This document shows, piece by piece, positions 19,890-57,895 of a stretch of 64,000 bases of DNA. This stretch comes from Curtobacterium flaccumfaciens pv. betae (lineage in GTDB: Bacteria; Actinomycetota; Actinomycetes; Actinomycetales; Microbacteriaceae). The position numbers and the translations under genes were made by a program. Below the pieces are notes generated by a model that did no database searches, had not been told where the DNA came from, and saw only the letters and a program-made list of their open reading frames with translations. The stretch spans positions 1,736,001-1,800,000 of the forward strand of contig NZ_JAPJDC010000001.1 of NCBI RefSeq assembly GCF_026241855.1, written 5' to 3'. Each line of letters starts with the position of its first letter. The stretch's first letter is position 1.

Positions 19890-19907
19890 GTCCGTCATCC
19901 TGCGGAC
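19890..19907 (-). promoter_or_regulatory. CsrA-like hairpin in the flgN operon leader
   Basis: On the minus strand, GTCCG-CAGGATGA-CGGAC forms a 5-bp stem with an 8-base loop displaying AGGAUG, close to the CsrA consensus core ARGGAUG. It begins eight bases after the -10 box, so it lies at the very 5' end of the transcript, 40 bases before the flgN start codon. Confidence 0.45.
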
Positions 19908-19915
19908 ACCGGGAC

Positions 19916-19942
19916 CTATCGACTCCGTGACCGCGACCGTAA
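19916..19942 (-). promoter_or_regulatory. FliA (sigma-28)-type promoter of flgN-flgK-flgL-fliW
   Basis: Minus strand TTAC (19942-19939), a 15-base spacer and GTCGATAG (19923-19916). This resembles the sigma-28 consensus TAAA-N15-GCCGATAA and the other four boxes in this locus. Confidence 0.55.
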
Positions 19943-20243
19943 GCCCCGGCGGCCGAGTGCCGTCCCCCGTACTCGTCGACTCTGTGACCCGATGACCCCC
20001 GTCGGGGGACAAGAACGAGCGTTCCCGACCCCGGGTCCCCCCAAATGCCGACCCGAAACCGGGCCTGACACCCCCGCACTGGGGACGGTTGTGCACCTGT
20101 TCAGCGCATTGCCAGCCGATACATTCAGAACGCACCCCGGGGGACACCCGGAACCGCTCGGGAACGATGCGGGGTGCACCGCTCGGAGGGACCCGGGCGG
20201 GTCTTCGGCGTACGCACCGGCCATCCGAGGCCGGCGTCCGTCG

Positions 20244-20259
20244 CGCCCACGGACGGGTG
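20244..20259 (+). promoter_or_regulatory. CsrA-like hairpin in the fliA leader
   Basis: CGCCC-ACGGAC-GGGTG: a 5-bp stem (one G-U pair) with the hexaloop ACGGAC, the same core seen in the fliC and flbD leaders. It sits 35 bases before the fliA ATG. Confidence 0.4.
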
Positions 20260-20293: not shown

Positions 20294-21109
20294 ATGGACC
20301 GCACCGAACGCAACGCGATGATCGTGGAGCACCTCCCGCTCGTGGGCTACATCGTGGCCGACGTCCGCTCCCGGGCGACGCACCTGGACCGCGACGACCT
20401 CGCCGCCGTCGGATCGCTCGCACTCGTCGCAGCCGCCGAGGCCTTCGACCCCACCCTCGGCGTGCCGTTCGGCGCCTACGCCCGCACCCGGATCGCCGGT
20501 GCGCTGGCCGACGACATGCGCTCGGCCGACTGGGCCTCCCGCGGCACCCGGAAGCGGATCCGCGAGACCCTGGCAACGCAGGAGGCCCTGTCCGCACGCC
20601 TCGGTCGGAGCGTCGGTGCCCAGGAGATCGCCGATGCCATGGGCGTCGACAAGCAGACCGCCGTCGACGCGATGAGCGACGCCGCCCGGACCGTCGCGCC
20701 GCTGGACGAGACCGTGCACGACCTCGTCCCCGCAGACCTGCCGCTCCCCGGGGACGACCTGCTCGAGACCGAGAGGCGCCGGTACCTCCGCGCCGCAGTC
20801 GAGGCCCTGCCGGAGCGGATGCGCTTCATCGTCGAGGCCGTGTACTTCGGCGACCGCTCGGTCACCGACGTCGCCGCCGAGCTCGGCATCACGCACTCGG
20901 CCGTCTCGCAGCAGCGCTCCGAGGCGATGCGCCTGCTCCACGACGGTCTCGCCGCCCACTACGGCGACGGCACCACCGTCGAGCCCGCGAGCCGCACCAC
21001 CGCGGCCCGCCGCAGCGCCTACCTCGCCCGTGTCGCCACGAACGCCGCCGCCGGTGTCGCCCGTGCCGTGCACGACGCCGCGTCCGGCCCGGCCGTCGCG
21101 GCGAGTTGA
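20294..21109 (+). CDS. fliA: RNA polymerase sigma factor FliA/WhiG family
   Basis: 271 residues with the sigma-70 order of regions but no region 1.1. Region 2 contains DDLAAVGSLALVAAAEAFDP and VPFGAYARTRIAGALADDMR, the latter matching the FliA/SigB-type S-Y-A-x-x-R-I-x-G-A-x-x-D-x-x-R signature. Region 3 follows (SARLGRSVGAQEIADAMGVD) and region 4 has VTDVAAELGITHSAVSQQRS. The C-terminal ~40 residues are an Ala-rich extension. It likely reads the TAAC-N15/16-GCCGATAG promoters of the locus. No anti-sigma FlgM gene was found nearby. Followed by fliC with its own promoter. Confidence 0.9.
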   Translation: MDRTERNAMIVEHLPLVGYIVADVRSRATHLDRDDLAAVGSLALVAAAEAFDPTLGVPFGAYARTRIAGALADDMRSADWASRGTRKRIRETLATQEALSARLGRSVGAQEIADAMGVDKQTAVDAMSDAARTVAPLDETVHDLVPADLPLPGDDLLETERRRYLRAAVEALPERMRFIVEAVYFGDRSVTDVAAELGITHSAVSQQRSEAMRLLHDGLAAHYGDGTTVEPASRTTAARRSAYLARVATNAAAGVARAVHDAASGPAVAAS

Positions 21110-21140
21110 GACGTCGGCGGAAACTTCTCCGCCGATCCCC

Positions 21141-21167
21141 TAACGACTCCCGGCAACCGGCCGAGAG
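21141..21167 (+). promoter_or_regulatory. FliA-type promoter of fliC
   Basis: TAAC (21141-21144), 15-base spacer, GCCGAGAG (21160-21167). Sixty bases separate the -10 box from the fliC ATG, giving a structured leader. Confidence 0.6.
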
Positions 21168-21179
21168 TCATCCATGTCA

Positions 21180-21219
21180 GCCCACGGACGGGCCGACGCA
21201 CGACCCACATTCACGGAGG
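21180..21219 (+). promoter_or_regulatory. Two CsrA-like sites in the fliC leader
   Basis: Site 1: hairpin GCCC-ACGGAC-GGGC (21180-21193) with A(N)GGA in the hexaloop. Site 2: ACGGA (21213-21217) overlapping the Shine-Dalgarno GGAGG (21215-21219). This repeats the two-site layout of the Bacillus hag leader, where CsrA blocks translation until FliW removes it. Confidence 0.55.
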
Positions 21220-21227
21220 AAACCACC

Positions 21228-22085
21228 ATGGGTATGTCCATCAACACCAACCTCTCGGCACTCAACACGTACCGGAACCTCAACGCGACGCAGAACGACC
21301 TGTCGAAGTCCCTCGAGAAGCTCTCGACCGGCCTCCGCATCAACCGTGCTGCCGACGACGCTGCCGGTCTGTCGATCTCCGAGGGGCTGAAGTCCCAGGT
21401 CGGTGGCCTCACGGTCGCCGCCCGCAACGCGCAGGACGGCATCTCCGTCGTGCAGACCGCTGAAGGTGGCCTCACCGAGACCCACTCGATCCTCCAGCGC
21501 ATGCGCGACCTGGCTGTCCAGGCCGGCAACGACTCGAACAACGAGGACTCGCGAAAGGCGATCACGACCGAGGTCGGTCAGCTCCAGGAGGAGCTGCAGC
21601 GCATCTCGGACTCGACCAACTTCAACGGGATCAAGCTGCTCGACGGCAAGGCCTCCACCACGGCTGCCGGTCCCGGTACCGGCAAGCTGACCTTCCAGGT
21701 CGGCGCGGACGGCTCCGACGCCAGCAAGATCGACGTCGACCTCACCGGCGCGGACGTCTCGAAGGTCGCCACGGCGGTCAAGGCGCTCGACTTCACCACG
21801 GGCGACAACGCTCGCCTCGCGGTGACCGAGCTCGACGCGCAGATCAAGTCGGTCTCGGAGGCTCGTTCCAACCTCGGTGCGGTCCAGAACCGCTTCGACC
21901 ACGCCATCAACGTGACGAACGTGGCCAAGGAGAACCTCACCGCTGCCGGTTCGCGCATCACCGACGTCGACATGGCGCAGGAGATGGTCAAGTACACGCG
22001 CGACAACATCCTCAGCCAGGCCGGCACCTCGATGCTCGCGCAGGCGAACCAGAGCACCCAGGGCGTGCTCTCGCTCCTGCGCTAG
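21228..22085 (+). CDS. fliC: Flagellin
   Basis: 285 residues, a short flagellin with full D0/D1 ends and little central domain. N-terminus: MSINTNLSALNTYRNLNATQ, then LSTGLRINRAADDAAGLSIS; C-terminus: NLGAVQNRFDHAINVTNVAK and QEMVKYTRDNILSQAGTSML ending in VLSLLR. ATG 21228 lies eight bases after GGAGG. Monocistronic: strong promoter upstream, perfect hairpin 22095-22137 downstream. Its leader carries two CsrA-like sites, so translation is probably controlled by CsrA and FliW. Arginine-120 region glycosylation or methylation cannot be judged. Confidence 0.97.
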   Translation: MGMSINTNLSALNTYRNLNATQNDLSKSLEKLSTGLRINRAADDAAGLSISEGLKSQVGGLTVAARNAQDGISVVQTAEGGLTETHSILQRMRDLAVQAGNDSNNEDSRKAITTEVGQLQEELQRISDSTNFNGIKLLDGKASTTAAGPGTGKLTFQVGADGSDASKIDVDLTGADVSKVATAVKALDFTTGDNARLAVTELDAQIKSVSEARSNLGAVQNRFDHAINVTNVAKENLTAAGSRITDVDMAQEMVKYTRDNILSQAGTSMLAQANQSTQGVLSLLR

Positions 22086-24372: not shown

Positions 24373-24385
24373 CCCGCGCCCCCGA

Positions 24386-24693
24386 GCGACGATGTCGTCG
24401 TCGTACGACAGCGACCCTGTCGCTTCCGCGCGCGTGCAACTGCTGGCGCGCGCAACGGGCGGCGTCTGCACGGAGCGACGATGTCGTCGTCGTACGACGG
24501 CGGCCCTGTCGCTCTCGCGCGCGTGCAACTGCTGGCGCGCGCAACGGGCGACGTCGTCGTTGTCGTACGACGTCGGCTCCGTCGCTTCCGCGCGCGTGCA
24601 ACTGGTGGCGCGTGCACGGGGCGACGATGTCGATGTCGTACGACGTCGACGGTGTCGCTCCCGTGCGCGTGCAACTGTCCGCGCGCGCAACGA
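24386..24693 (+). repeat. 73-bp tandem palindromic repeat, cluster 2 (four units)
   Basis: Units start with GCGAC at 24386, 24475, 24548 and 24621, with the next GCGAC at 24694; spacings are 89, 73, 73 and 73 (the first unit carries a 16-bp insertion). Each unit has a palindrome centred on TCGTACGA and a GC-rich half containing GCGTGCAACTG. The same family with the same 73-bp period occurs at 16543-16663. Confidence 0.85.
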
Positions 24694-24751
24694 GCGACAC
24701 CGCGCACCGACGCCGCACCCGCACCCACCGCCCCCCGTTCGGGGCGACGCC

Positions 24752-24779
24752 TAACGCGGCGGACGACGGACTCCGATAG
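24752..24779 (+). promoter_or_regulatory. FliA-type promoter of the flgB-flgE operon
   Basis: TAAC (24752-24755), 16-base spacer, TCCGATAG (24772-24779). It drives about 10 kb of overlapping basal-body and hook genes. Confidence 0.55.
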
Positions 24780-24787: not shown

Positions 24788-24825
24788 GAGCACGGATCGC
24801 TCACCAGTTCGGCCAGGGATCGGCC
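24788..24825 (+). promoter_or_regulatory. Two CsrA-like hairpins in the flgB leader
   Basis: GAGC-ACGGATC-GCTC (24788-24802) and GGCC-AGGGATC-GGCC (24811-24825): two adjacent perfect 4-bp stems with 7-base loops, each displaying A(N)GGA at the same loop position. They begin eight bases after the -10 box. Confidence 0.5.
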
Positions 24826-24875: not shown

Positions 24876-25220
24876 GTGTTCGATTCCGTGACGAGCATCG
24901 CGCTGCAGAGCGCACTCGACGGTCTGTCGATGCGCCAGAAGGTGATCGCGAACAACATCGCGAACATCAACACGACGAACTACCACGCCGAGAAGGTCCA
25001 GTTCGAGGACGCCCTGGCGAAGTCGATCGTGGACGGCGACGGTGCCACCACGCCGACGATGGCGCGCAGCCTCGAGCCGACGAACACGAACGGCAACAAC
25101 GTCAACCTCGACGAGGAGACGCTGTCGAACATCGACACCGTGCTGCGGTACCAGTTCGCCACGCAGGCGATGAACTCCGAGCTCACCAGCGTCCGTGCGG
25201 CGATGCGGACGAACTCGTGA
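24876..25220 (+). CDS. flgB: Flagellar proximal rod protein FlgB
   Basis: 114 residues. LQSALDGLSMRQKVIANNIA followed by NINTTNYHAEKVQFEDAL is the rod-protein N-terminal signature in its FlgB form, and MNSELTSVRAAMR closes the D0 helix. It builds the proximal rod through the basal body. GTG 24876 has GAGGGGA upstream. First gene of the long operon; its stop overlaps the flgC GTG. Confidence 0.93.
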   Translation: MFDSVTSIALQSALDGLSMRQKVIANNIANINTTNYHAEKVQFEDALAKSIVDGDGATTPTMARSLEPTNTNGNNVNLDEETLSNIDTVLRYQFATQAMNSELTSVRAAMRTNS

Positions 25221-35376: not shown

Positions 35377-35703
35377 ATGCTGACCATTGCCTCGCGGCAC
35401 GACGTGCTGAACCGTCTCGGGCGGGCGCTCTCCGACCCCACGCGTGCGCGGATCCTGCTCCGGCTGCTCGACGAACCCGGCTACCCGGCGCGGCTCGCCG
35501 AGGAACTCGAGCTGACGCGGACGAACGTGTCGAACCACCTGTCGTGCCTGCGCGGCTGCGGGATCGTCGTCGCAGTCCCCGAGGGCCGTCGGACCCGCTA
35601 CGAGATCGCCGACCGCAACCTCACCCGTGCGCTCGAGTCCCTGGTCGACGTGGTGCTGGCGGTGGACGTCGCCGACGACGACGGATGCGAGGTCGAGCGG
35701 TGA
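35377..35703 (+). CDS. cmtR: CmtR-type ArsR-family metal sensor (Cd/Pb)
   Basis: 108 residues, closely patterned on Mycobacterium tuberculosis CmtR: LGRALSDPTRARILLRLLDE, TRTNVSNHLSCLRGCGIVVA, YEIADRNLTRALESLVDVVL. The metal-binding Cys57 and Cys61 occupy the same numbers as in CmtR, and Cys104 near the terminus stands for CmtR Cys102. Such repressors leave DNA when Cd2+ or Pb2+ bind. The next gene, a CDF transporter, overlaps by four bases and is the regulated exporter. Confidence 0.88.
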   Translation: MLTIASRHDVLNRLGRALSDPTRARILLRLLDEPGYPARLAEELELTRTNVSNHLSCLRGCGIVVAVPEGRRTRYEIADRNLTRALESLVDVVLAVDVADDDGCEVER

Positions 35704-36374
35704 CCACGGCCGCGATGTCGCTCGCACCGGCTCGTGTCGGCGTGCTCCGGCGACGGATCAGGTGGATCGTCGCGGCGACCATCGCCTACAACGTGATCGA
35801 GGCCGTCGTGGCGATCGCCGCCGGTTCGGTGGCGTCCTCCACCGCGCTGATCGGCTTCGGGCTCGACTCGATCGTCGAGGTCCTGTCGGCAGCGGCCGTC
35901 GCGTGGCAGTTCGCCGGGCGTGACCCAGAGGCCCGGGAACGAACGGCACTGCGGGTGATCGCGATCTCGTTCCTCGGGCTCGCCGTCGTGGTGAGTGTCG
36001 ATGCCGTCCTGACCTTCACGGGCCTCCGGTCGCCGGAGCACAGTCCGGTCGGCATCGTCCTGGCCGCGGTGAGCCTGGCGGTCATGCCGTTCCTGAGCCT
36101 CGTCGAACGGCGGACCGGACGCGAACTCGGCTCGGCGTCGGCGATCGCCGACTCGAAGCAGACGCTGATCTGCAGCTACCTGTCGGCGGCGGTGCTGCTC
36201 GGCCTGCTGGCGAACAGCCTGTTCGGCTGGTGGTGGGCCGATCCGCTCGCAGGACTCGTCGTGGTCGTGTTCGCCGTGCGCGAGGGTCTCGAAGCCTGGC
36301 GCGGTGACGCGTGCAAGCAGCCGGTGTCGGCGCTGACCGGGGAGCGCGAGCGCGAGGGGTGCGACTGCTGCTGA
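35700..36374 (+). CDS. Cation transporter (CDF-like metal efflux)
   Basis: 224 residues, about six membrane segments. IVEVLSAAAVAWQFAGRDPE and ALIGFGLDSIVE carry the Asp/Glu pattern of the CDF first site; ASAIADSKQTLICSYLSAAV and WWADPLAGLVVVVFAVREGL match the later helices. It ends in a Cys-rich tail (EREREGCDCC) instead of the usual cytosolic domain, probably binding thiophilic metals. Coupled to cmtR, so Cd/Pb export is the likely job. GTG 35700; ATG 35715 is an alternative. Confidence 0.85.
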   Translation: MTTAAMSLAPARVGVLRRRIRWIVAATIAYNVIEAVVAIAAGSVASSTALIGFGLDSIVEVLSAAAVAWQFAGRDPEARERTALRVIAISFLGLAVVVSVDAVLTFTGLRSPEHSPVGIVLAAVSLAVMPFLSLVERRTGRELGSASAIADSKQTLICSYLSAAVLLGLLANSLFGWWWADPLAGLVVVVFAVREGLEAWRGDACKQPVSALTGEREREGCDCC

Positions 36375-36399
36375 TCGGAGTCTGCCTGAGGCTGGCGGT

Positions 36400-36690: not shown

Positions 36691-36695
36691 GGACT

Positions 36696-41087: not shown

Positions 41088-41174
41088 CTGCCCATCCAGC
41101 ACGGTCGGCCTGGGCGGCGCATGGAGCGCTCCTGGGCATCGGCCTGGAGGCCCGTGGGGACCCCGTCAGACGGG

Positions 41175-41210: not shown

Positions 41211-41216
41211 GGGGGA

Positions 41217-41290: not shown

Positions 41291-41301
41291 CGGGTTCAGG
41301 G

Positions 41302-42870
41302 TCAGTCGTGGAACGTCTCGATGGACGCGCCGAGCGAGTTGAGGCGCTCCTGCAGCTGCTCGTAGCCACGGGCGATGATGCCGACGTTGCGCAGGACGCT
41401 CTCGCCCTTCGCCGCGAGCATCGCCAGCAGGATCACCACGGCAGGCCGCAGTGCCGGCGGGCAGCTGATCTCGGCCCCGGAGAAGTGCGTCGGGCCGGTG
41501 ACGTCGAGGCGGTGCGGGTCACGCAAGGTGACGCTCGCGCCCAGGCGGGTGAGGTCGAGCAGGTGGATCGCCCGGCCCTCGTAGACCCAGTCGTGCACGA
41601 GCGTGGTGCCCTCGGCCATGGCCGCGATCACGACGAAGAACGGCAGGTTGTCGATGTTCAGGCCGGGGAACGGCATCGCGTGGATCTTGTCGATCGGCGC
41701 GTGCAGCTCGGACGGGTGCACCGTGATGTCGACGAGACGGGTACGGCCGTTGGCGGCTGCGTACTCCTCGCTGACGTCGAAGCGCAGGCCCATCTCGGCC
41801 AGGGTCGCGAGCTCGATCTCGAGGAACTCGATCGGCGCACGCGTCACGGTGAGGGTCGACGCGGTGACGATGCCGGCGGTCAGCAGGCTCATCGCCTCGA
41901 CCGGGTCCTCGCTCGGCCAGTAGTCCACGACCTCGTCGATCTTGCTCTTGCCGGTGATGCGGAGCGTGGTGGTGCCGATGCCCTCGATCTGCACCCCGAG
42001 CAGCTCGAGGAAGAAGCAGAGGTCCTGCACCATGTAGTTGGGGCTGGCGTTCCGGATGACGGTCTCGCCGTCGCGGGCCGCGGCGGCCAGGATCGCGTTC
42101 TCGGTCACGGTGTCGCCGCGCTCGGTGAGCACGACCGACTTGGTGGGGACGGCCTGGTTCGCGACGTCGACCTCGTACCAGCCGGAGGTCGCCTCGACGT
42201 CCACGCCGAACGGACGCAGCGCGATGAGGTGCGGCTCGACCGTGCGGGTGCCGAGGTCGCAGCCGCCGGCGTAGGGCAGACGGAACGACTCGTACCGGCC
42301 GCTGAGGGGGCCGAGGAACATGAGCACGCTGCGGGTGCGGCGGGCGGCGTCGGCGTCGATCGCGTCGAGGTGCAGGTCGTCGGGGGCGACGATCTCGAGG
42401 GTCTCGCCGTCCTCCGACCAGGTGACGCTCGCGCCGAGGCTGCGGAGCACGTCGATGATGCGGTCGACCTCGACGATCCGGGCGACCTTGTGCAGACGGG
42501 TGACGCCGCGGTTGAGCAGCGAGGCGCAGAGCAGCGCGACGGCGGCGTTCTTGCTCGAGTTCACCGCGATGGAGCCGCTGAGCTTCCGGCCGCCCTGCAC
42601 GCGCAGGTGGGCGCGCTGCGGGGCGCCGCCGATCGAGACGATCTGCTGGTCGAGGGCGTCGCTGATGCGGGTGAGCATCTCGAGGGACAGGTTCTGCCCA
42701 CCCTGCTCGATGCGGTTGATCGCGCTCTGGCTGGTGCCGACGCGTTCGGCGAGCTGGGCCTGCGTCATGCTGCGGCCCTTGCGGGCGCCCCGGATCAGGG
42801 CGCCGACCTCACGGAGGGGTGCTGCGGTCGCCGGAGATGCCGGCGAGACGACGGTGGTGGTGTCGGTCAT
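41302..42870 (-). CDS. murA: UDP-N-acetylglucosamine 1-carboxyvinyltransferase with N-terminal HTH
   Basis: 522 residues. Residues ~20-80 are an XRE-type helix-turn-helix (MTQAQLAERVGTSQSAINRI), followed by a complete MurA/EPSP-synthase fold. Key residues: Lys-Asn in NSSKNAAVALLCASLL, active-site Cys in LPYAGGCDLGTRTVEPH. It transfers enolpyruvate to UDP-GlcNAc, the first step of peptidoglycan synthesis. ATG 42870 is preferred over GTG 42879; no Shine-Dalgarno precedes it, so the mRNA may be nearly leaderless. HTH-MurA fusions occur in actinobacteria, usually beside a second plain MurA elsewhere, so this may be a regulatory paralogue. Confidence 0.92.
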   Translation of the reverse strand: MTDTTTVVSPASPATAAPLREVGALIRGARKGRSMTQAQLAERVGTSQSAINRIEQGGQNLSLEMLTRISDALDQQIVSIGGAPQRAHLRVQGGRKLSGSIAVNSSKNAAVALLCASLLNRGVTRLHKVARIVEVDRIIDVLRSLGASVTWSEDGETLEIVAPDDLHLDAIDADAARRTRSVLMFLGPLSGRYESFRLPYAGGCDLGTRTVEPHLIALRPFGVDVEATSGWYEVDVANQAVPTKSVVLTERGDTVTENAILAAAARDGETVIRNASPNYMVQDLCFFLELLGVQIEGIGTTTLRITGKSKIDEVVDYWPSEDPVEAMSLLTAGIVTASTLTVTRAPIEFLEIELATLAEMGLRFDVSEEYAAANGRTRLVDITVHPSELHAPIDKIHAMPFPGLNIDNLPFFVVIAAMAEGTTLVHDWVYEGRAIHLLDLTRLGASVTLRDPHRLDVTGPTHFSGAEISCPPALRPAVVILLAMLAAKGESVLRNVGIIARGYEQLQERLNSLGASIETFHD

Positions 42871-42980
42871 GCGCGCCACGCTAACACGCTCATGAGATAA
42901 ATCGATGGAAGATCGACACCCTTTGCGCGTCCTGAGGTCTCGAATACGTCACAGTTGGGAATTTCGGGGGACGAAACTGC

Positions 42981-43778
42981 TCAGGGATCGGTCAGGGTGC
43001 CCCGGACGATCGAGTCACCGGAGTGCGCCGGATCACCGTCGTCGGCCTCGGCCGAGACGTCCACGACCGGGAACTCCGCGGTGTCGACGCCGTCGGGCAC
43101 CGTGAAGCGGCCCTGGTCGCCGTCGAGGTAGCCGACGCTCACCAGTCCGCCGAGGTCCGACCGCATCATCCAGACTTCGCGCAGCGGACCGGTGCCGGAG
43201 CGACCGCGCTCTCCGTGCAGGTCGACGAGCAGGGTCACCCGGCCGTCCTGGTCACGTTCGAGTTCGGCGCGGCCGGTCGTCCCCGACCAACCGGGCAGCG
43301 CTGCGAGCTCGGTGTTCGCCAGGACGGTCTCGGTGTCGCCGCGGGGGAGTCCGGGGACGATCCCCGACGCCACACCGATGCCGAGGACGACGGCCAGGAC
43401 ACCGACGCCGGCGATCACCAGCGCCAGGACACGGCGACGACGCGGACGGGATCGGTGTCGGCGTGCCACGGCGTGGTGCTGCCCGTCGGACGGCGTGGCG
43501 GCGGACGCGCGTTCGGCCGCTCGTCCTGGATCGGTCGCCGGCGCCGCGGCCTGCTGTGGCGTCCGGGCGATCTCGGCCGCGATCCGGTCCCACACGTGCT
43601 CCGGGGGCGCGGCCAGCGTGACGTCCTCGGACGCCCGGGTCACCGCGGCGACCCGCTGCAGCGCGGCCACCTCGTCGCGGCACCGGTCGCAGGACGCCAG
43701 GTGCTCGGCGACGTCGTCGGTCGCGACCTGGTCGGAGACCGCGAGCATCGCCAGCGTCTCGTCGTCGACGTGCTTCAT
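42981..43778 (-). CDS. RskA-type anti-sigma factor
   Basis: 265 residues. The N-terminal zinc anti-sigma motif is clear: VAEHLASCDRCRDEVAALQR (H-x3-C-x2-C). One membrane segment (about residues 118-140, VLALVIAGVGVLAVVLGIGV) leads to an extracytoplasmic RskA domain (LREVWMMRSDLGGLVSVGYL region). It holds the neighbouring ECF sigma at the membrane until proteolysis. Its start overlaps the sigma gene's stop (ATGA), so the pair is coupled. Confidence 0.92.
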   Translation of the reverse strand: MKHVDDETLAMLAVSDQVATDDVAEHLASCDRCRDEVAALQRVAAVTRASEDVTLAAPPEHVWDRIAAEIARTPQQAAAPATDPGRAAERASAATPSDGQHHAVARRHRSRPRRRRVLALVIAGVGVLAVVLGIGVASGIVPGLPRGDTETVLANTELAALPGWSGTTGRAELERDQDGRVTLLVDLHGERGRSGTGPLREVWMMRSDLGGLVSVGYLDGDQGRFTVPDGVDTAEFPVVDVSAEADDGDPAHSGDSIVRGTLTDP

Positions 43779-44320
43779 TCGATCACCTCCAGACGTGTTC
43801 GGAGCCGAGCCAGACTTCGGTGGATGTGGCTCTTGACGGTGCCCAGCGGCAGTTCGAGCCGTTCGGCGATCTCACGATGGCTGAGGTCGTCGTAGAACGC
43901 CAGTCGCATCACGCGCCGTGGGACCTCGTCGAGCCGCTCGAGCTCTCCGGCGACCAGTGCGCGTTCGGCCAGGTCGAAGGCCGGTTCCGGCGCCGGGGTG
44001 GTCTCCTCGACCACGTCCGCGTCGGCGGCGCTGGCGTGCCGTCGGCGCTCGTTCTGCGCGTCGGCGATGCAGTTCCGGGTGATGCCGACCAGCCACGCGC
44101 CGAGCGGGGCGCGGCCGGGGTCGTAGCTCGTGCTGCGCTGCCAGGCCTTCACGAAGACCTGCTGCGTGACGTCCTCCGCGGCGGCCGGGTCGGCCAGGGC
44201 GCGCAGGGCCAGCGAGTACACGAGTGACGACCACCGCTCGTAGACGGCTCGCAGGGCGTGCTCGCCCCCGGCGCGGAACGCGTCCGAGAGCTCGCTGTCG
44301 TCCGGGAGGATGGTCGTCAC
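43775..44320 (-). CDS. ECF RNA polymerase sigma factor (SigK-like)
   Basis: 181 residues. Region 2: YERWSSLVYSLALRALADPA and AEDVTQQVFVKAWQR; region 4: LAFYDDLSHREIAERLELPL then GTVKSHIHRSLARLR. This is the ECF19/SigK-like architecture, and the RskA partner fits. GTG 44320 has AGGAAGAC upstream; a longer frame adds an Arg-rich head and is rejected. Last but one gene of a four-gene minus-strand unit with sortase and DUF4397 genes. Confidence 0.9.
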   Translation of the reverse strand: MTTILPDDSELSDAFRAGGEHALRAVYERWSSLVYSLALRALADPAAAEDVTQQVFVKAWQRSTSYDPGRAPLGAWLVGITRNCIADAQNERRRHASAADADVVEETTPAPEPAFDLAERALVAGELERLDEVPRRVMRLAFYDDLSHREIAERLELPLGTVKSHIHRSLARLRTRLEVIE

Positions 44321-44388
44321 GTCTTCCTGTCGCTGGCGCGGTCGTCGTCGACCACGATCCGATCGTAGGGGGCGGATCGTCGCCACGG

Positions 44389-45033
44389 TCAGGCCGGGAC
44401 CGCGGTCACGACGAGGTTGCTCTCGTAGTGTCCGGTGGCTGCGTCGAACGTCCCGCCGCAGGTCACCAGGACGAGCCGTCGGGGCCCGTCGTGACGGAAC
44501 ACCTCACCCCAGGGGAGTCCCTGCTTCTCGAGCATGCTGACGGAGTCGATCCGCCACGCGGTCTCGGCACCGTCCGCGTCGGTCAGGGTGACCCGGGTGC
44601 CGGACGGGGCGTCGCCGAGGCGGGAGAACGGGCCGATGCCGTAGCCGACCGCGTCGACGTGGGCCGCGATGACGACGGTGCCCTCGGTGGACGACGGTGC
44701 GGCACCGAACCGGTACCAGCCCGCGGTGGCCGGGTCGGGCGGGAGCGCCAGCGCGCCGTCCTCGTCGACCCCCTCCGGGCGGACCGGCGCGCTGATGCCG
44801 GCGTGGTCGACGGTGATGGTGGTCGGGGCGTGGGCGTCCCGGACCGGGGGGATCGTGGCGGCCTGCTGCGGCACCTCGGTCGAGAACGCTGACGGGACCG
44901 GTGTGGGGGTGGTGGTCGTCAGGACGGACGGCTGCCCGCCGGGGGTGGTCCCGGCCGACGAGCACCCGGTCAGGGCGGCGGCCGCCACGGCGACGAGGAG
45001 CGTCACCGTGGCGGACCGCACGGGGCGTGGCAC
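44389..45033 (-). CDS. Class F sortase
   Basis: 214 residues. A signal-anchor or lipoprotein head (VAVAAAALTGCSS) precedes a Thr/Pro linker and the sortase barrel. Catalytic His lies in VVIAAHVDAVGYG and Cys in RLVLVTCGGTFD; the C-terminal GHYESNLVV holds the region of the Arg. Class F enzymes are typical of actinobacteria and can anchor surface proteins or trim peptides. The neighbouring DUF4397 protein is the likely substrate. Two bases separate the genes. Confidence 0.88.
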   Translation of the reverse strand: MPRPVRSATVTLLVAVAAAALTGCSSAGTTPGGQPSVLTTTTPTPVPSAFSTEVPQQAATIPPVRDAHAPTTITVDHAGISAPVRPEGVDEDGALALPPDPATAGWYRFGAAPSSTEGTVVIAAHVDAVGYGIGPFSRLGDAPSGTRVTLTDADGAETAWRIDSVSMLEKQGLPWGEVFRHDGPRRLVLVTCGGTFDAATGHYESNLVVTAVPA

Positions 45034-45035
45034 GT

Positions 45036-45875
45036 TCAGCGGCGGGTCGCTGCGTGCCGGCGGCGGAGCACCACGGCCCCGATCGCGGCAGCGGCGGCCA
45101 GTGCGGCCGCCGCTGCGCCGACCAGGGGCAGGGGGTCCTGGTCGTTCGTGGCCACGAGACCGGCGTTCCCGGCAGGGACGCCGTTCGGCGTGCCACCGAG
45201 GTCCGCGATCGTCTGCGTGGCGAGGGCGAGGTTGTCATCGTCCAGGCTGCCCCAGGCGTAGACGATGGTCGACGAGCCCGCGGTGACCGCGACGTCCGCC
45301 GGGCCGATCACGGGGTCGGTGGTCCCGGTGGCGGCGACGGTCGCCGACACGGTGCCGGCCGGCAGCTCGAGTGCCTGCTCGTCGGGGTTCGACAGGTTCG
45401 ACACGACGGCCTTCCCACCGGCGAGGACGTCGACGGCCGGTGCGGCGGCGACGTGCCGGACGACCAGGCGTCCCTGGCCGGCCGCGACGGCCGAGGTGTC
45501 GTTGGTGAACACCGTGGCGGTCGGGGACCCGTCCGTGGCGTCGTGGGCGACGGCGGTGTAGTTGCCCCCAGCGTCGAACGAGACGTCCGCCGGGCCGATG
45601 ATCGGCTTCGACGCATCGGTGGCGTCCGAGGCGGTGATCGCGAGCTGGTGCGCACCGGCCGGCACCATCATGGGGCCGGCGAGGGTGCCCGGGGTGAAGT
45701 CGTCGATGGCACGTTCGCCGTCGAGGTAGACGTCGACGGTGACGTCCGGGACGGCGTGGAGGACCGAGAGCGTCGCGTCGCCGGTGGCGGCGGTCGCAGC
45801 GGTCGCGGGCAGTACGGCCGCGGCGGCGGCGAACAGGACACCGGCGCTGAGGCCGGTGGCGAGTGTCTTGCGCAT
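45036..45875 (-). CDS. Secreted DUF4397 protein with degenerate sortase signal
   Basis: 279 residues. Signal peptide (KTLATGLSAGVLFAAAAAVL, cut near ATAATA), then two DUF4397 repeats (LSVLHAVPDVTVDVYLDGER; LVVRHVAAAPAVDVLAGGKA). The C-terminus has LPLVG followed by a hydrophobic stretch and RRRHAATRR, the layout of an LPxTG signal with Val in place of Thr. ATG 45875 has GAAGGAG upstream. First gene of the DUF4397-sortase-sigma-anti-sigma unit; the arrangement is common in Microbacteriaceae. Confidence 0.88.
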   Translation of the reverse strand: MRKTLATGLSAGVLFAAAAAVLPATAATAATGDATLSVLHAVPDVTVDVYLDGERAIDDFTPGTLAGPMMVPAGAHQLAITASDATDASKPIIGPADVSFDAGGNYTAVAHDATDGSPTATVFTNDTSAVAAGQGRLVVRHVAAAPAVDVLAGGKAVVSNLSNPDEQALELPAGTVSATVAATGTTDPVIGPADVAVTAGSSTIVYAWGSLDDDNLALATQTIADLGGTPNGVPAGNAGLVATNDQDPLPLVGAAAAALAAAAAIGAVVLRRRHAATRR

Positions 45876-45939
45876 GACGTGTCTCCTTCGGGCCTGTCCG
45901 GGCCGGTGCGGACGACGTCGTCCTCGACGTCGTACCCCC

Positions 45940-45967
45940 ACTACCGCCGGAGCACCCCGATCGGATG
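45940..45967 (-). promoter_or_regulatory. Possible ECF promoter of the DUF4397 operon
   Basis: Minus strand CATCC (45967-45963), a 16-base spacer, CGGTAGT (45946-45940), loosely like SigK/ECF19 promoters (CATCC and a CGTA-like -10). It would make the operon autoregulated. Weak evidence. Confidence 0.3.
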
Positions 45968-45984
45968 CAGCGATTTCCTGGGGA

Positions 45985-47064
45985 TCAGCTGAGACGGCGC
46001 CAGACCCCTGCGTTGCCCGGACGCGACCAGGTCTCCGGATCGCCCGTGACGGCCTCGTCCCCGGCTCCCAGGTCGGTGAGCCGGTACGCGGAGTCCGGCG
46101 TCCACCCGGCGACGACGCTCGCGCGGCTGCCGTCGACCGGCACGGCGAGCCCGGAAGTGCGGAACCAGCCTGCGACGGTCAGGTGCACGACGTCGTACTC
46201 GGTGGCCACCGCGGACCAGTCCGGCAGCACCCAGTCGCCCTGCCGTCCGGTCGCCACGGCCCAGTCGTTCCGTCGGGTCGTCCCCGTCACGTCGAGCGGC
46301 CAGCGCCGGCACAGCGCGGCCCAGTCGGCGGGACCCTCGACGGTGCACACGCGCGCCGTGGCATCGGCCGGCACCGCCGAGACGATGGCGCGTTCCTGCC
46401 CGAAGGAGTCCTCGACCGCCCAGAGCGCCAGCGGCCCGGCGGACGGGAACGGCGCTCGCGTGTGCTGCGCGAGCGGCCACGGCGGCGTCGTCCACCACAC
46501 CCCGCTGCCGGTCCCCGGACTTCCCTCGGAGATCTCGTCCCGCAGCTCCAGCGCCCAGTCGGCCAGTGCCGCCTCCGCGCTCGGACGACGGGGCTGGTCG
46601 CCCTCGTCGAACTCGACGCTCCATGCTCCGCCCTGCGGGTCGGAGAGCCGGCGCACGACCGGGCTGTCGACCGCCCACCGAGCGAGCCGCCGAAGCGCGG
46701 CCAGCAGTTCCGTCCGAGCGAGGAGCGCGTCCAGCGCATCGGGCTGCTGCCACCACAGCGCGCTCTCCGCAGTCGACTCGAGTGCGACCACGACGTCGTC
46801 CTCGCCCACGGACGGCAGGGACACCGCCGCGAGTGCGCTCGCCACCGCTGCCAGATTCGGAGCCGGATCGGGTTCGACCTCACCACCGATGCCGAAGAGC
46901 GTTCGGTCGTCGCCGCGTTCGACGCCGAGGTGGTGCTCCGCCCAGAAGAGCAGGTCGCCGAGTTGTAGGGCGGCCGGGTCGTCGGGGTCCTGGACACCGC
47001 TGACGAGCTCCAGGCAGAAGCGCCGGCCACGCGGGTGGGCGAGCAGGTCCGAGGCATCGATCAC
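45985..47064 (-). CDS. Conserved hypothetical protein
   Basis: 359 residues, soluble, Trp-rich, not recognised. It opens MIDASDLLAHPRGRRFCLEL with LLFWAEHHLGVERGDD, a middle WWTTPPWPLAQHTRAPFPSA and an end VLPDWSAVATEYDVVHLTVA. The spread of Trp and acidic residues with no membrane segment suggests an enzyme or binding protein. Monocistronic; divergent from the flbD promoter. I can give no function. Confidence 0.75.
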   Translation of the reverse strand: MIDASDLLAHPRGRRFCLELVSGVQDPDDPAALQLGDLLFWAEHHLGVERGDDRTLFGIGGEVEPDPAPNLAAVASALAAVSLPSVGEDDVVVALESTAESALWWQQPDALDALLARTELLAALRRLARWAVDSPVVRRLSDPQGGAWSVEFDEGDQPRRPSAEAALADWALELRDEISEGSPGTGSGVWWTTPPWPLAQHTRAPFPSAGPLALWAVEDSFGQERAIVSAVPADATARVCTVEGPADWAALCRRWPLDVTGTTRRNDWAVATGRQGDWVLPDWSAVATEYDVVHLTVAGWFRTSGLAVPVDGSRASVVAGWTPDSAYRLTDLGAGDEAVTGDPETWSRPGNAGVWRRLS

Positions 47065-47087
47065 CGAACCAGGCTAGTGACGGCCGC

Positions 47088-47114
47088 TAACGCACCCGTC
47101 GCACCCGCCGATAG
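47088..47114 (+). promoter_or_regulatory. FliA-type promoter of flbD-motA-motB
   Basis: TAAC (47088-47091), 15-base spacer, GCCGATAG (47107-47114): the best match in the locus to the sigma-28 consensus. Confidence 0.65.
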
Positions 47115-47125: not shown

Positions 47126-47169
47126 GGCCCACGGACGGGCCCGCATCCCGCCCCACGGACGGCGGCGGG
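47126..47169 (+). promoter_or_regulatory. Two CsrA-like hairpins in the flbD leader
   Basis: GGCCC-ACGGAC-GGGCC (47126-47141), 5-bp stem and hexaloop; and CCGCC-CCACGGAC-GGCGG (47148-47165), 5-bp stem, extendable to 47169. The first starts 12 bases after the -10 box plus one, exactly as in fliC. Confidence 0.5.
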
Positions 47170-47192
47170 ACGATCGAGAACCAGGACGGGCC

Positions 47193-47495
47193 ATGATCGT
47201 CGTCACACGACTGAACGGCAGCGGATTCGCTGTGAACCCCGATCTCGTGGAGCGCATCCAGGAGACGCCGGACACGACGCTCATCATGGTCGACGGTGCG
47301 AAGTACATCGTGCGGGAGTCGATGGCCGACGTCATCGACCTGATCGCCGCGTACCGCGCACGCATCGTCGGCATGGCCTACGGCACCGACCAGGCCCCCC
47401 GGTCGAGCACGAACACCGGCCCGCAGCCCACGCTCGCCCCGGTCGCCGCACTCCGCTCCACGCAGCACGGCCGCGCGCTGGACGGGGGTCGCTGA
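47193..47495 (+). CDS. flbD: FlbD-family flagellar protein
   Basis: 100 residues. MIVVTRLNGSGFAVNPDLVE with IQETPDTTLIMVDGAKYIVR is the FlbD (SwrD-like) fold: a small beta protein of about 65 residues, here with a 35-residue Thr/Pro-rich tail. In Bacillus SwrD raises motor torque and is encoded beside motility genes. ATG 47193 follows GGACGGG. First gene of the mot operon, one base before motA. Confidence 0.88.
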   Translation: MIVVTRLNGSGFAVNPDLVERIQETPDTTLIMVDGAKYIVRESMADVIDLIAAYRARIVGMAYGTDQAPRSSTNTGPQPTLAPVAALRSTQHGRALDGGR

Positions 47496-54621: not shown

Positions 54622-56672
54622 ACCGCAAGGACCTGCCGAAGCTCGTCGTCCCGGTGTTCATCGTCGGCATCATCCTGCTGCTGATCCTGCCGGTGCCGTC
54701 GTTCCTGCTCGACTTCCTGATCATCATCAACATCCTGCTGGCGCTGGTGATCCTGCTCACGACGCTGTTCGTGAAGAAGCCGCTCGACTTCTCGGTGTTC
54801 CCGTCCCTGCTGCTCGTCGCGACGCTGTTCCGGCTCGGCCTCAACGTGGCGTCCACCCGGTTGGTGCTCGGCGAGGGCTTCGCCGGCGACGTCATCCAGG
54901 CGTTCGGCCACGTCGCCGTCTCCGGGTCGATCATCATCGGCGCAGTCATCTTCCTGATCCTCATCGTCATCCAGTTCGTCGTGGTGACGAAGGGTGCCGA
55001 GCGCGTCGCCGAGGTCGGGGCACGCTTCACCCTCGACGCGATGCCGGGCAAGCAGATGGCGATCGACGCGGACCTGAACGCCGGGCTGATCACCGACCAG
55101 GAAGCCAAGGAGCGCCGCGCCGCGGTGTCCGCCGAGGCCGACTTCTACGGCGCGATGGACGGTGCGTCGAAGTTCGTCAAGGGCGATGCGATCGCCGGCA
55201 TCCTGATCATCATCATCAACCTGATCGGCGGCATCGCGATCGGCATGCTGCAGAACGGACTGTCCGCCACCGACGCCCTGTCGAAGTACGGCATCCTGAC
55301 GATCGGCGACGGCCTGGTCACGCAGATCCCGGCGCTGCTCATGGCGGTCTCGACGGGCATGATCGTCACCCGGTCCGGCGCCGAGTCCGAGATGGGGTCC
55401 TCGGCCGCGACCCAGCTGTCGCAGTCGCGGAACGCCCTGATGATCGCCGGTGTCGCCGCGATCGCGATGGGCTTCATCCCCGGCATGCCGATCCTGCCCT
55501 TCCTACTCGTCGGCGCGACCCTGCTCTTCACGGGCTGGCGCATCGGCCGGAACGCCGCCCGGGCCGAGGCCGACGCCGCCCAGCAGCAGGCACTCGCGGC
55601 GGCGGCACCGACCGGCGACACCCCGGAGGACCTGCTCGAGCAGATGCGCGTGCACGCCCTCGAGATCCTGCTCGCCCCCGACCTGGTCGACATGGTCTCC
55701 GGCGCCTCCGACGACCTGCTCGGCCGGGTACGTGCCCTCCGCCGCAAGATCGCGATCGACATGGGGATCGTCGTCCCGCCGGTCCGCACCCGCGACTCGA
55801 TCGACCTGCCGCCGTCGACGTACGCCATCCGGATCGCCGGCGTCGAAGCCGGTCGTGGCACCGCGCCCGCCCGCAGCGTCCTGGCGCTCGGCGACCACCT
55901 GGACGGCCTGCCCGGCACCTCCACCGTCGAGCCGGTGTTCGGCCTGACCGGCAAGTGGGTTCCCGCCGAACTGCGGCACGCCGCCGAGATGACCGGCGCG
56001 ACCGTGATCGACCGGGTCTCGGTGCTCGTCACCCACCTGCAGGCGGTCATCGGCGACAACGCCGCGCGCCTGCTCACCCGCGAGGACGTCAAGGTCCTGA
56101 CCGAGGGCGTCAAGCAGGTCAACCCCGCCGCGGTCGAGGAACTCGTGCCCGGCATGCTGTCGATGGCCGAGCTGCAGCGGGTGCTGCAGGGCCTGCTCGC
56201 CGAGCGCGTGCCGATCAACGACCTCGGCCGGATCTGCGAGGCCCTCACGCTCCGCGCCAAGGTGTCGACCGACCCCGAGGGGCTCGTCGAATCCGCCCGT
56301 GCGGCCCTCGGACCGGCCCTCGCCGCCCGGCACACCGACGCCGGCACCCTGCGCGTCATCATGATCGACCCGATGCTCGAGCAGTCGATGCTCGAGGGGC
56401 TCCGGCCGTCCGAGCAGGGCAGCCAGATCGTGCTCGACGCGCACCGCATCGAGCAGGTCCTGGGCTCCGTCCGCGACGCCGTGCGCTCCGTGGAGGACCA
56501 GGGGCTCTCCGCCGTCCTGGTCTGCGCCCCGCAGCTCCGCCCGGCCGTGCACCGCATGGTCGCCGCCCAGTCGAACGGGCTCCCGGTGCTGTCGTACCAG
56601 GAGGCCACCGCCGCGGGCTCCACCATCGAGACCGTGGGAGTGGTCCGTGCCGCCGACCCGATTGCAGCGTAG
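54618..56672 (+). CDS. flhA: Flagellar biosynthesis protein FlhA
   Basis: 684 residues. Eight membrane segments in the first ~330 residues include the FHIPEP-family box FSVFPSLLLVATLFRLGLNV and the cytosolic loop GARFTLDAMPGKQMAIDADL with the proton-coupling Asp. The C-terminal ~340 residues bind late-substrate chaperones (INDLGRICEALTLRAKV region). Central pore of the export gate. ATG 54618 overlaps flhB; 26 bases at its end are shared with the next gene. Confidence 0.96.
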   Translation: MNRKDLPKLVVPVFIVGIILLLILPVPSFLLDFLIIINILLALVILLTTLFVKKPLDFSVFPSLLLVATLFRLGLNVASTRLVLGEGFAGDVIQAFGHVAVSGSIIIGAVIFLILIVIQFVVVTKGAERVAEVGARFTLDAMPGKQMAIDADLNAGLITDQEAKERRAAVSAEADFYGAMDGASKFVKGDAIAGILIIIINLIGGIAIGMLQNGLSATDALSKYGILTIGDGLVTQIPALLMAVSTGMIVTRSGAESEMGSSAATQLSQSRNALMIAGVAAIAMGFIPGMPILPFLLVGATLLFTGWRIGRNAARAEADAAQQQALAAAAPTGDTPEDLLEQMRVHALEILLAPDLVDMVSGASDDLLGRVRALRRKIAIDMGIVVPPVRTRDSIDLPPSTYAIRIAGVEAGRGTAPARSVLALGDHLDGLPGTSTVEPVFGLTGKWVPAELRHAAEMTGATVIDRVSVLVTHLQAVIGDNAARLLTREDVKVLTEGVKQVNPAAVEELVPGMLSMAELQRVLQGLLAERVPINDLGRICEALTLRAKVSTDPEGLVESARAALGPALAARHTDAGTLRVIMIDPMLEQSMLEGLRPSEQGSQIVLDAHRIEQVLGSVRDAVRSVEDQGLSAVLVCAPQLRPAVHRMVAAQSNGLPVLSYQEATAAGSTIETVGVVRAADPIAA

Positions 56673-57612
56673 CGGCGCGACGCTCGAGTCCCTCCGCGAC
56701 GCGGTCCGGACCGAGTTCGGCGCGGGTGCGCGGATCGTCGCGGCCGAACGCGTGACCACGCCGGGTTTCGGCGGGCTGTTCCGCAAGGCGCACGTCGAGG
56801 CCACCGTCGAGGTGCCGGAACCGGGGGACCAGCCCACCGCCCGGGTCCTCATCGCCGACTCGCCCGTGCAGCGCGTCGGCATCGCCGCGCTGCTCGCCGA
56901 CGCCGAGGCAGCCGAGGCACGCATCGCCGGCACCGACGGCACCAGGGCGACGCGGGCCGACGCCTTCGCGTCGGTGCTCGACGGGTTCCAGGCGGACGGC
57001 ATCACGCCGAGCGCCCCGCGCCCGACGCTCGCGCCGTCCGAGCCGGACGCGCCCACCGGGGTCGACCCGCGCCTCCAGGCCGCCGTCGACGCGCAGACGG
57101 TGGCGGACGCGCAGGCGGTGGCCGTCGCGCAGCCGGTCGTCGAGACCCGGTCGGGAGGCCCGTCCCACGTCCTCGACGCGCCCTCGCCTGCACCGGTGGG
57201 CCGGCCCACGGCCCCGACCGTGCGGTCCGCGGACGGTGACCTGGTGCTCCTGGTCGGGCGGCCGAACGACGTCGACGCGGCCGCCGGGCTCTTCGCGGTG
57301 CGGCACGCGCTCCGGCCGACGGACGCCGCCGACCGCCGTGCGGCGATCCTGGCGCGGGCCGACGGTGTCCGCGACGGGCACGCCGTGCTCGCCGTCGCCG
57401 CGTGGGACGACCGGGCGACCGGCGACGCGCTGCAGGCCGACCAGGTGTGGGTCGTGGTCGACGTCGGGCGGAAGCCCGCGGACTCGGCCGCGATGGTGTC
57501 CGCGGTGGCCTCGCGGCTGCCCGTGGTCGGCGTCGTGGCGATCGGTGCGGGGGAGACCGCCACGCCCGGGTCGGTGGACCTGCTGGGGCTCCCCGTCGTG
57601 TCGCTAGGCTGA
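56647..57612 (+). CDS. FlhF-like protein lacking a GTPase P-loop
   Basis: 321 residues in the flhF slot behind flhA. The N-terminal ~50 (RSGATLESLRDAVRTEFGAG then RIVAAERVTTPGFGGLFRKA) match the FlhF start. The C-terminal ~120 resemble the end of an SRP-type GTPase (LVLLVGRPNDVDAAAGLFAV; VWVVVDVGRKPADSAAMVSA), but the G-x-x-x-x-G-K-(S/T) loop and the other G motifs are absent. The middle is Pro/Ala-rich. It overlaps flhA by 26 bases. Probably a degenerate FlhF that could still place the flagellum without GTP hydrolysis; unusual. Confidence 0.65.
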   Translation: MPPTRLQRSGATLESLRDAVRTEFGAGARIVAAERVTTPGFGGLFRKAHVEATVEVPEPGDQPTARVLIADSPVQRVGIAALLADAEAAEARIAGTDGTRATRADAFASVLDGFQADGITPSAPRPTLAPSEPDAPTGVDPRLQAAVDAQTVADAQAVAVAQPVVETRSGGPSHVLDAPSPAPVGRPTAPTVRSADGDLVLLVGRPNDVDAAAGLFAVRHALRPTDAADRRAAILARADGVRDGHAVLAVAAWDDRATGDALQADQVWVVVDVGRKPADSAAMVSAVASRLPVVGVVAIGAGETATPGSVDLLGLPVVSLG

Positions 57613-57616
57613 ACGG

Positions 57617-57895
57617 GTGCTGGTACTCACGCGGAAGGTCGGCGAGCGGATCCTCGTCGGCGACGACATCGTCATCACGGTGCTCGACTCCCGGGGCGAC
57701 GGCGTCCGGATCGGCATCGACGCCCCGCGCGGCGTGAAGATCCAGCGCGAAGAGGTCGTGCGTGCGGTCGCCGAGGCGAACGCCGAGGCCGCCGCTGCCG
57801 GTGACGACGCCGAGGCGCAGCTGCGCGCGGCGCTCGGGGCTCGCGGCGGGGCGGCCGCGGGCGGCCAGGCTCCGCCGGAGCCGACCGACTCCTAG
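57617..57895 (+). CDS. csrA: Carbon storage regulator CsrA
   Basis: 92 residues; the first ~60 are a standard CsrA: MLVLTRKVGERILVGDDIVI with VRIGIDAPRGVKIQREEVVR. RNA-contact residues Arg6 and Arg44 are both present. The last ~32 residues are an Ala/Gly extension. It binds A(N)GGA hairpins in mRNA leaders; candidate sites occur in five flagellar leaders here. FliW, its antagonist in Bacillus, is encoded at 16690. GTG 57617, four bases after the FlhF-like stop; end of the long fliM operon. Confidence 0.95.
   Translation: MLVLTRKVGERILVGDDIVITVLDSRGDGVRIGIDAPRGVKIQREEVVRAVAEANAEAAAAGDDAEAQLRAALGARGGAAAGGQAPPEPTDS

Follow-up and report, generated by a model that had tools for sequence, protein, structure and literature searches.

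The leaders of three flagellar operons of Curtobacterium flaccumfaciens pv. betae, headed by the flagellin gene fliC, the rod, hook, and basal-body gene flgB, and flbD, carry small hairpins with an A(N)GGA motif in the loop. These hairpins are conserved RNA elements, and their assignment as CsrA-type sites is well supported by their enrichment, by compensatory changes in their stems, and by the constancy of the A(N)GGA motif. Judging from sequence, they probably define a FliW-controlled CsrA regulon that includes the filament, rod/hook, and motor/export operons and, with the last of these, csrA itself. The window, i.e., the whole analysed stretch of 64,000 nucleotides, represents positions 1736001-1800000 of contig 1 of the 3.78-Mb genome. 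A first-pass annotation of the window had assigned the CsrA-binding signature to five leaders (flgN, fliA, fliC, flgB, and flbD) and had read it as the mark of a whole flagellar regulon. The signature stands for fliC, flgB, and flbD, is limited to the genus in fliA, and is not conserved in flgN; likewise, the proposed regulon shrinks to the three large operons, as the strict scan of the family (see below) detected no conserved site in the leaders of flgN, fliD, flgE, and fliM.

Hairpins in the flagellar leaders

All hairpin strings named by the first-pass annotation are present in the respective leaders, each found once at its place, and GCCC[ACGGAC]GGGC (loops are given in brackets) occurs a second time, inside the flbD hairpin. 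The CsrA-type hairpin of the fliC leader, identified by its conservation, covariation, and predicted fold, spans positions 21176-21197 of the plus strand, with the core GCCC[ACGGAC]GGGC at 21180-21193; an ACGGA that overlies the fliC Shine-Dalgarno sequence (21213-21217, plus strand) is a second candidate site. The flgB leader contains two plus-strand hairpins, GAGC[ACGGATC]GCTC at 24788-24802 and GGCC[AGGGATC]GGCC at 24811-24825, both recognised by their conservation and the latter also by its steady spacing. In the flbD leader, GGCCC[ACGGAC]GGGCC (47126-47141, plus strand) is backed by the strict scan, covariation, and fold. The second flbD hairpin that had been announced could be located at 47147-47169 on the same strand; it has the sequence CCCGCCCC[ACGGAC]GG-C-GGCGGG, i.e., a stem with one bulged C, and was also seen by eye in the congeners L062 and L066. 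An AGGAC, noted from sequence, overlies the flbD Shine-Dalgarno sequence (47183-47187, plus strand).

A strict scan that accepted stems of at least 4 bp with at most one G-U pair and loops of the form AGGAN, ANGGAN, or ANGGANN returned 25 hairpins from both strands of the window (128 kb of strand), 15 of them in coding regions and 10 in intergenic ones. Six of these 10 lie in sense orientation no more than 160 nt upstream of a predicted start, and all six belong to flagellar genes (two to fliA, one to fliC, two to flgB, and one to flbD). The flgN hairpin, with its 8-base loop, falls outside the strict definition. The first-pass annotation had also called for a count over leaders elsewhere in the genome. 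In a 424-kb sample, consisting of the window and 18 stretches of 20 kb, a strict hairpin was found in 4 of 8 flagellar leaders (those of flgN, fliD, flgE, and fliM being without one) vs 5 of 337 other leaders (Fisher test, 1.5e-5), one of these five being itself located in the flagellar cluster, ahead of the gene at 31107. The flagellar leader set had been picked by the annotation, so the comparative data carry more weight than this within-genome test. There were no matches to Rfam families at the gathering score in the window.

Conservation in the family

Among 199 genomes drawn evenly from the family Microbacteriaceae, CsrA, FliW, FlbD, and a strong flagellin hit were each found in 62 genomes, which, according to a comparison of the lists by eye, are the same 62; a further 8 Flagellin_N hits were weak and partial. 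Of the 61 relatives, 60 yielded flagellar stretches, and the flbD leader was retrieved separately for 16 genomes; G176, whose flagellin gene is cut by a contig end, contributed only its flbD leader and gave no fliC row. The scanned leaders comprised 110 nt upstream of start codons whose positions are approximate, and leaders whose start was missing from the retrieved stretch were left out, which reduced the sets to 56 (flgB), 53 (fliA), and 48 (flgN) of the 62 genomes.

Strict hairpins were detected in 45 of 61 fliC leaders, in all 56 flgB leaders (51 with two), and in 28 of 62 flbD leaders, with antisense hits in 0, 1, and 0 leaders and dinucleotide-shuffle means of 0.75, 1.20, and 1.15 leaders, respectively. 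The corresponding counts were 6 of 53 for fliA (4 antisense, shuffle mean 0.95) and 1 of 48 for flgN (0 antisense, shuffle mean 0.75). Control flagellar leaders taken together had a strict hairpin in 5 of 299 cases (fliD 1/57, flgE 3/55, flgK 0/50, fliF 0/55, motA 1/44, fliM 0/34, and flgL 0/4), and random 110-mers from the same loci had one in 222 of 11000 (2%). All 61 family fliC leaders contain an ANGGA at positions -39 to -53 and another one within 30 nt of the start, the distance between the hairpin motif and the Shine-Dalgarno motif being 29-30 nt in 38 of the 61. Taken alone, the start-proximal motif is weak evidence, because Shine-Dalgarno sites are rich in GGA.

Compensatory changes around a constant loop

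Alignment of leaders from related genomes, also suggested by the first-pass annotation as a check, revealed, in the short hairpins of fliC and flbD and, with less stem variation, in those of flgB, an unchanging A(N)GGA enclosed by stems that vary in a compensatory manner. In fliC, the loop is retained while the stem is variously GCCC/GGGC, GGCC/GGCC-like, CCCC/GGGG, GACC/GGTC, and others. Covariation was assessed on 80 unique fliC rows drawn from both the family and the class beyond it, using shuffles that ignore relatedness. In these rows, 86% of the cells at pairs 1 to 6 are paired in register, compared to 20-53% when the register is slid by one or two bases. In the combined set, the observed pairing was reached by 0 of 500 shuffles at each of the 8 pairs; in the split sets, it was reached by 500 of 500 shuffles at pair 2 in the family and by 21 and 50 of 500 at pairs 1 and 8 in the class. 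On a FliF tree of 55 rows, the minimum numbers of changes between paired states at pairs 1 to 8 were 0, 0, 5, 2, 7, 4, 13, and 13, counting G-U states and excluding unpaired rows at each pair (14 of the 55 at pair 3). The class set leaves out 7 of 40 leaders, namely L152, L164, L165, and L167 (no CsrA), L149 (no motif), and L163 and L169 (no start). Where a row contained several ANGGA motifs (22 of 94 fliC covariation rows), the one nearest to -45 was used regardless of pairing; the family motif survey and the FliF-tree counts relied instead on the best-pairing fliC ANGGA.

For flbD, where a -10-like box was found in 55 of 62 leaders, the A(N)GGA that comes next after this box was chosen blind to pairing, and removal of near-start motifs reduced the AGGAN rows from 27 to 21 and the ANGGAN rows from 20 to 18. 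Among the 20 unique rows of the AGGAN group, pairs 1 to 4 are formed in 20, 19, 20, and 19, respectively; pair 2 occurs as four Watson-Crick types and is formed in 19 of 20 rows vs 9.8 in shuffles. With the near-start motifs kept, the same pairs are formed in 22, 20, 20, and 20 of 25 rows (pair 2 in shuffles, 11.0). The ANGGAN group is weaker, with 9-11 of 15 rows paired at pairs 1 to 4. In flgB, compensation is evident at pairs 2 and 3 of hairpin 1 (0 of 500 shuffles); hairpin 2 displays little covariation in the family (5 and 21 of 500 shuffles at pairs 2 and 3), and its stems in other families of the class include GCCG/CGGC and others. That the loops stay constant while the stems change suggests that much of the flagellum is under a single control at the RNA level.

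Distribution in the class

A sample of 394 genomes of the class Actinomycetes, tallied by eye with a flagellin cut-off of E 1e-20 or better, included 56 genomes with CsrA and 46 with flagellin (42 with both, 14 with CsrA alone, and 4 with flagellin alone). Outside the family, 40 flagellin leaders came from 38 of 39 flagellin-bearing genomes, and a strict hairpin was found upstream in 27 of the 36 leaders that belong to CsrA-bearing genomes, with stems as unlike as CGGGGAGCC/GGCTCCCCG and TGGGGC/GCCCCG. Two genomes with flagellin and no CsrA, G461 and G568 (completeness 100), have neither FliW nor the hairpin, although their flagellin hits are among the weaker ones (E 2.4e-23 and 6.1e-35); the leader in G561 (63% complete, no CsrA match) has an odd hairpin. 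FliW had no match in any of the four CsrA-less flagellin genomes (G461, G568, G561, and G221), which make a small control. The 20 kb around fliC were examined in 20 out-of-family genomes: 14 of them yielded flgB, preceded by at least one hairpin in 13 and by two in 11, and 4 yielded flbD, preceded by a hairpin in 3.

Promoters, placement, and predicted folds

A FliA-type promoter pattern (CTAACG, 14-15 bases, and a CCGATAG-like box), composed after these leaders had been viewed, has just three matches on both strands of the window, all on the plus strand: before fliC (21140-21167, CTAACG-N14-GCCGAGAG), the flgB operon (24751-24779), and the flbD operon (47087-47114). The flgN box (GTCGATAG) is one base off this pattern. 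In leaders with a -10-like match, the first A(N)GGA follows this box at 16 nt in 29 of 42 cases for fliC, at 12 nt in 22 of 39 for flgB, and at 16-17 nt in 19 of 46 for flbD, distances so short that the hairpin would begin a few bases from the predicted transcript start. The two flgB motifs are separated by 21-26 nt (22-23 nt in 36 of 50 leaders), and the second one is located 34-66 nt ahead of the start; the best spacing for a CsrA dimer is 18 nt, and that in flaA of Campylobacter jejuni is 21 nt (PMC4894983). In folds computed from guessed transcript starts, a weak guide either way for GC-rich leaders when taken alone, the fliC hairpin and both flbD hairpins appear in the best predicted structure with the GGA open, as is the GGA of the flbD Shine-Dalgarno sequence.

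Just upstream of the flgB promoter, positions 24384-24698 of the window are occupied by a tandem array whose units, 73-89 bases long, are rich in GCGCGCGTGCAACTGCTGGCGCGC; its core pattern has three occurrences in the genome, all of them in this array.

The fliA and flgN leaders

The fliA leader hairpin, CGCCC[ACGGAC]GGGTG at 20244-20259 on the plus strand, is a genus-level candidate. Of 43 leaders of the genus clade, 42 retain at least 3 bp of this site and 33 retain 4 bp; the hairpin is absent from the best predicted fold. It is a genus-level trait by sequence comparison; in the family it barely exceeds the antisense rate (6 vs 4 of 53). The flgN stem with its CAGGATGA loop, located at 19890-19907 on the minus strand, is largely formed in the predicted fold of the window with the GGA open; stem and motif occur together in only 7 of 43 genus-clade leaders (one row, L110, being partly N), and flgN was rejected as a conserved CsrA site.

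CsrA, FliW, and their genes

The presence of fliW and csrA in the flagellar locus, part of the initial proposal, was borne out by Pfam, both proteins exceeding the respective cut-offs. The gene for the putative CsrA antagonist FliW (16690-17058, minus strand) is the last one in the flgN-flgK-flgL-fliW run, which lacks conserved sites. Its product scores 62 bits against a cut-off of 25 for the FliW domain (PF02623), covers positions 36-122 of the 122-position profile, leaving the N-terminal part unmatched, and matches by sequence the FliW of the FliW-CsrA entry 5dmb (E 1.4e-5). The csrA gene (57617-57895, plus strand) closes the run that begins with flbD and lies 40 kb from fliW, in a different gene run. 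CsrA scores 81 bits against a cut-off of 27 (PF02599), and matches solved CsrA/RsmA chains; a search of the entire genome returned no further CsrA match. By ungapped counting, residues R44 and N55 are retained in all 19 readable CsrA rows, including that of the window (2 of 21 rows were unread); in Bacillus subtilis, CsrA with N55 changed to D is deficient in FliW binding (PMC6529632).

Heading the operons in question are fliC (21228-22085, plus strand; Flagellin_N, E 3.3e-49), flgB (24876-25220, plus strand; Pfam Flg_bb_rod), which opens the rod/hook/basal-body run, and flbD (47193-47495, plus strand; Pfam FlbD, 89 bits), which opens the run ending in csrA. The flagellar sigma factor gene fliA (20294-21109, plus strand) encodes Pfam Sigma70_r2 and r4 domains and owes its name to its position and relatives; its product shares 99% identity with FliA of Curtobacterium flaccumfaciens LMG 3645, which makes Curtobacterium the very likely genus. 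Overall, Pfam backs CsrA, FliW, FlgN, the sigma factor, FlgB, FlbD, and FliM, and the flagellin domain backs fliC and flgL; the remaining flagellar gene names in the window are presumed from gene order and resemblance.

Alternative explanations and opposing evidence

The short distance of A(N)GGA from the -10 box, mostly 12-17 nt and hence near the predicted 5' end, would also suit hairpins that serve as plain 5'-end stabilisers of FliA transcripts, slowing their decay without CsrA. Such stabilisers would not need A(N)GGA, which persists as other loop bases vary. Moreover, many flgN leaders of the family have FliA-like promoters, as judged by eye, yet a hairpin is found in just 1 of 48, and the two CsrA-less genomes G461 and G568 lack it; we consider this explanation unlikely. 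The same steady promoter distance, along with the near-invariant flgB arms GAGC/GCTC and GGCC/GGCC, could be expected if the inverted repeats were DNA operators for a flagellar transcription factor. That option appears quite improbable, given that the fliC and flbD arms compensate each other while an asymmetric loop is kept and that antisense hits are confined to 0, 1, and 0 leaders of fliC, flgB, and flbD. A small RNA with a UCC-bearing loop could pair with the exposed hairpin loops, and those of fliC and flbD are indeed predicted to be open. Among orthologues, though, position 2 of the loop is C, T, A, or G and the last base varies as well, a pattern that fits CsrA rather than base pairing and leaves such an RNA with a very low probability, lower than that of an operator. 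The least probable of these alternatives is that GC-rich leaders form such hairpins by chance: the 2% rate in random 110-mers, set against the rates in fliC, flgB, and flbD, refutes it for these three, whereas it likely holds for the flgN string and for the second fliA-leader hit near 20179-20200.

Several observations count against a CsrA regulon. No perfect 4-bp hairpin was found by the strict scan in 34 of 62 flbD and 16 of 61 fliC leaders of the family, and 9 of 36 flagellin leaders of the class lack a strict one, several by a single mismatch near the loop; the family leaders, furthermore, are not independent of each other. The flgB arms GAGC/GCTC and GGCC/GGCC are near-invariant in the family, where recognition of the loop alone would permit drift. 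Neither flgB hairpin appears in the best predicted fold of the window, hairpin 1 being drawn into a longer pairing with the start region, and the GGA of the fliC Shine-Dalgarno sequence is predicted to be paired. G221 (80% complete) has no CsrA match and retains a good hairpin, and 14 of the 56 CsrA-bearing class genomes lack a flagellin hit at E 1e-20 or better, so that CsrA and flagella are not strictly linked there. Finally, CsrA binds many of the flagellar leaders of C. jejuni, yet FlaG, FlaB, and FlgI hardly change when csrA is deleted (PMC4894983), which means that sites need not mean control.

Because the 5' arm of flgB hairpin 1 is near-invariant and the window fold favours pairing between this arm and the start region, a switch between the two structures was also considered. 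GAGCAC is fully complementary (6/6) to the start-region GTGYTC in 29 of 52 leaders and matches it at 5/6 in 16 more, at least three rows having used a GAGCA other than that of the hairpin. The variable pair fits in 34 of 52 leaders, compared to about 31 expected by hand reckoning if the two sites were independent, and the switch is unsupported. As a separate observation on this gene, flgB starts are read as GTG or TTG in 42 of 55 genomes, and CTT, rare as the second codon of fliF, occupies this position in 9 of 55 flgB genes; ATG starts account for 61/61 fliC, 61/62 flbD, 50/51 fliF, and 51/53 flgE genes, those of fliA and flgN being mixed.

Proposed mechanism and comparison with known systems

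Under the FliW-controlled CsrA regulon, FliA would make the fliC, flgB, and flbD messages, each with a CsrA hairpin almost at its start. The loop equals the ANGGAN hexaloop that is bound by RsmE in solved structures, and the site layouts resemble those of known targets (PMC7652899). The fliC layout is like that of glgC, where repression results from CsrA bridging a hairpin to the Shine-Dalgarno site; flbD has the same layout plus an extra hairpin, and flgB is like flhDC, whose message CsrA protects via two sites near its 5' end (PMC7652899). On fliC, a CsrA dimer could bridge the hairpin and the Shine-Dalgarno site and block translation until flagellin export frees FliW, which would remove CsrA and lift the repression, as in B. 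subtilis (PMC6529632). The hairpins and Shine-Dalgarno site of flbD would repress likewise, and the position of csrA as the last gene of this run, presumably on one transcript with flbD, suggests that CsrA limits its own operon. The two flgB hairpins, 22-23 nt apart and both upstream of the Shine-Dalgarno sequence, may hold one dimer, with either protection or repression of the message as the outcome. A more far-reaching and tentative possibility, which we consider rather doubtful, is that the flgB double hairpin is a class-wide regulatory RNA that conveys the export signal to the rod/hook operon and, via the flbD leader, to csrA. CsrA would then hold flagellin off and the rod/hook message on, protecting it like flhDC in E. 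coli, until the hook is done, whereupon both signs would reverse together.

Control of flagellin by FliW and CsrA, as well as wide CsrA binding to flagellar leaders in C. jejuni, are known already. As in the Hag-FliW-CsrA system of B. subtilis, csrA and fliW are both present and the CsrA residue N55 is retained, and all 61 flagellin leaders of the family combine an upstream motif with a second motif that overlaps the Shine-Dalgarno sequence, hag having two CsrA sites as recounted in PMC2587704. Unlike B. subtilis, where the reading frames of fliW and csrA overlap and hag is the target studied, the two genes here are 40 kb apart, and the rod/hook and motor/export runs bear sites, the latter run ending with csrA. 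The flaA leader of C. jejuni, with two GGA hexaloops 21 nt apart (PMC4894983), is similar in spacing to flgB of the window (22-23 nt), whereas flgB itself was enriched only 0.7-1.6 fold in C. jejuni, according to the accessible part of that study, and is headed by a double hairpin here. In Escherichia coli, CsrA likewise has two sites close to the 5' end of flhDC, an early flagellar message (PMC7652899), although the candidate target here is the flgB run rather than a master regulator, and its protection is suggested by analogy.

Among actinobacteria, CsrA was proposed in 2008 to act on the flagellin message of Kineococcus radiotolerans on the basis of a match to the Shine-Dalgarno site of hag, and csrA was noted beside the flagellar genes (PMC2587704); this proposal concerns one gene in one species, and the accessible text names no upstream hairpin, other operon, or FliW. 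A possible role of FliW as a regulator of CsrA in Actinobacteria has been suggested on the basis of gene distribution (PMC4682653). In the accessible portions of two further papers, CsrA and FliW appear once each in the searched-protein list of a survey of actinobacterial flagella (PMC10746217), and an Actinosynnema expression table lists fliW and csrA beside flgN, flgK, and flgL (PMC9019756). In the open-licence literature, we found no test of, or binding data on, actinobacterial CsrA targets, which is not proof of absence, and came across neither the flgB double hairpin nor a multi-operon CsrA regulon in actinobacteria. FliW-CsrA has been studied mostly as a flagellin thermostat; the presence of conserved sites ahead of the rod/hook and motor/export operons would turn it into a flagellar stage switch that sits at the 5' end of FliA messages and feeds back on csrA. 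Exact RNA sites with natural stem variants are now defined for a direct test.

Organisation of the flagellar locus

Flagellar genes occupy approximately 16.7-35.0 kb and 47.2-57.9 kb of the window, the cluster being interrupted by 12 kb of non-flagellar genes (35377-47064). In relatives that have both genes on one contig, the distance between fliC and flbD ranges from about 12 to 45 kb. Whole-genome searches gave no matches to CheW or to the signalling domain of methyl-accepting chemotaxis proteins, so that the flagellar genes are present without these usual chemotaxis proteins, and chemotaxis leaders were dropped as potential CsrA targets. The leaders L044 and L046 (genomes G103 and G028) come with a second flbD-like gene, which is divergently oriented beside fliC and near csrA. 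Directly 3' of csrA in the window, positions 57909-57999 hold a 23-base unit in four tandem copies, which contain CCCGTCACGGGC-like inverted repeats, and a 195-base tandem unit is repeated in about four copies at 62314-63178.

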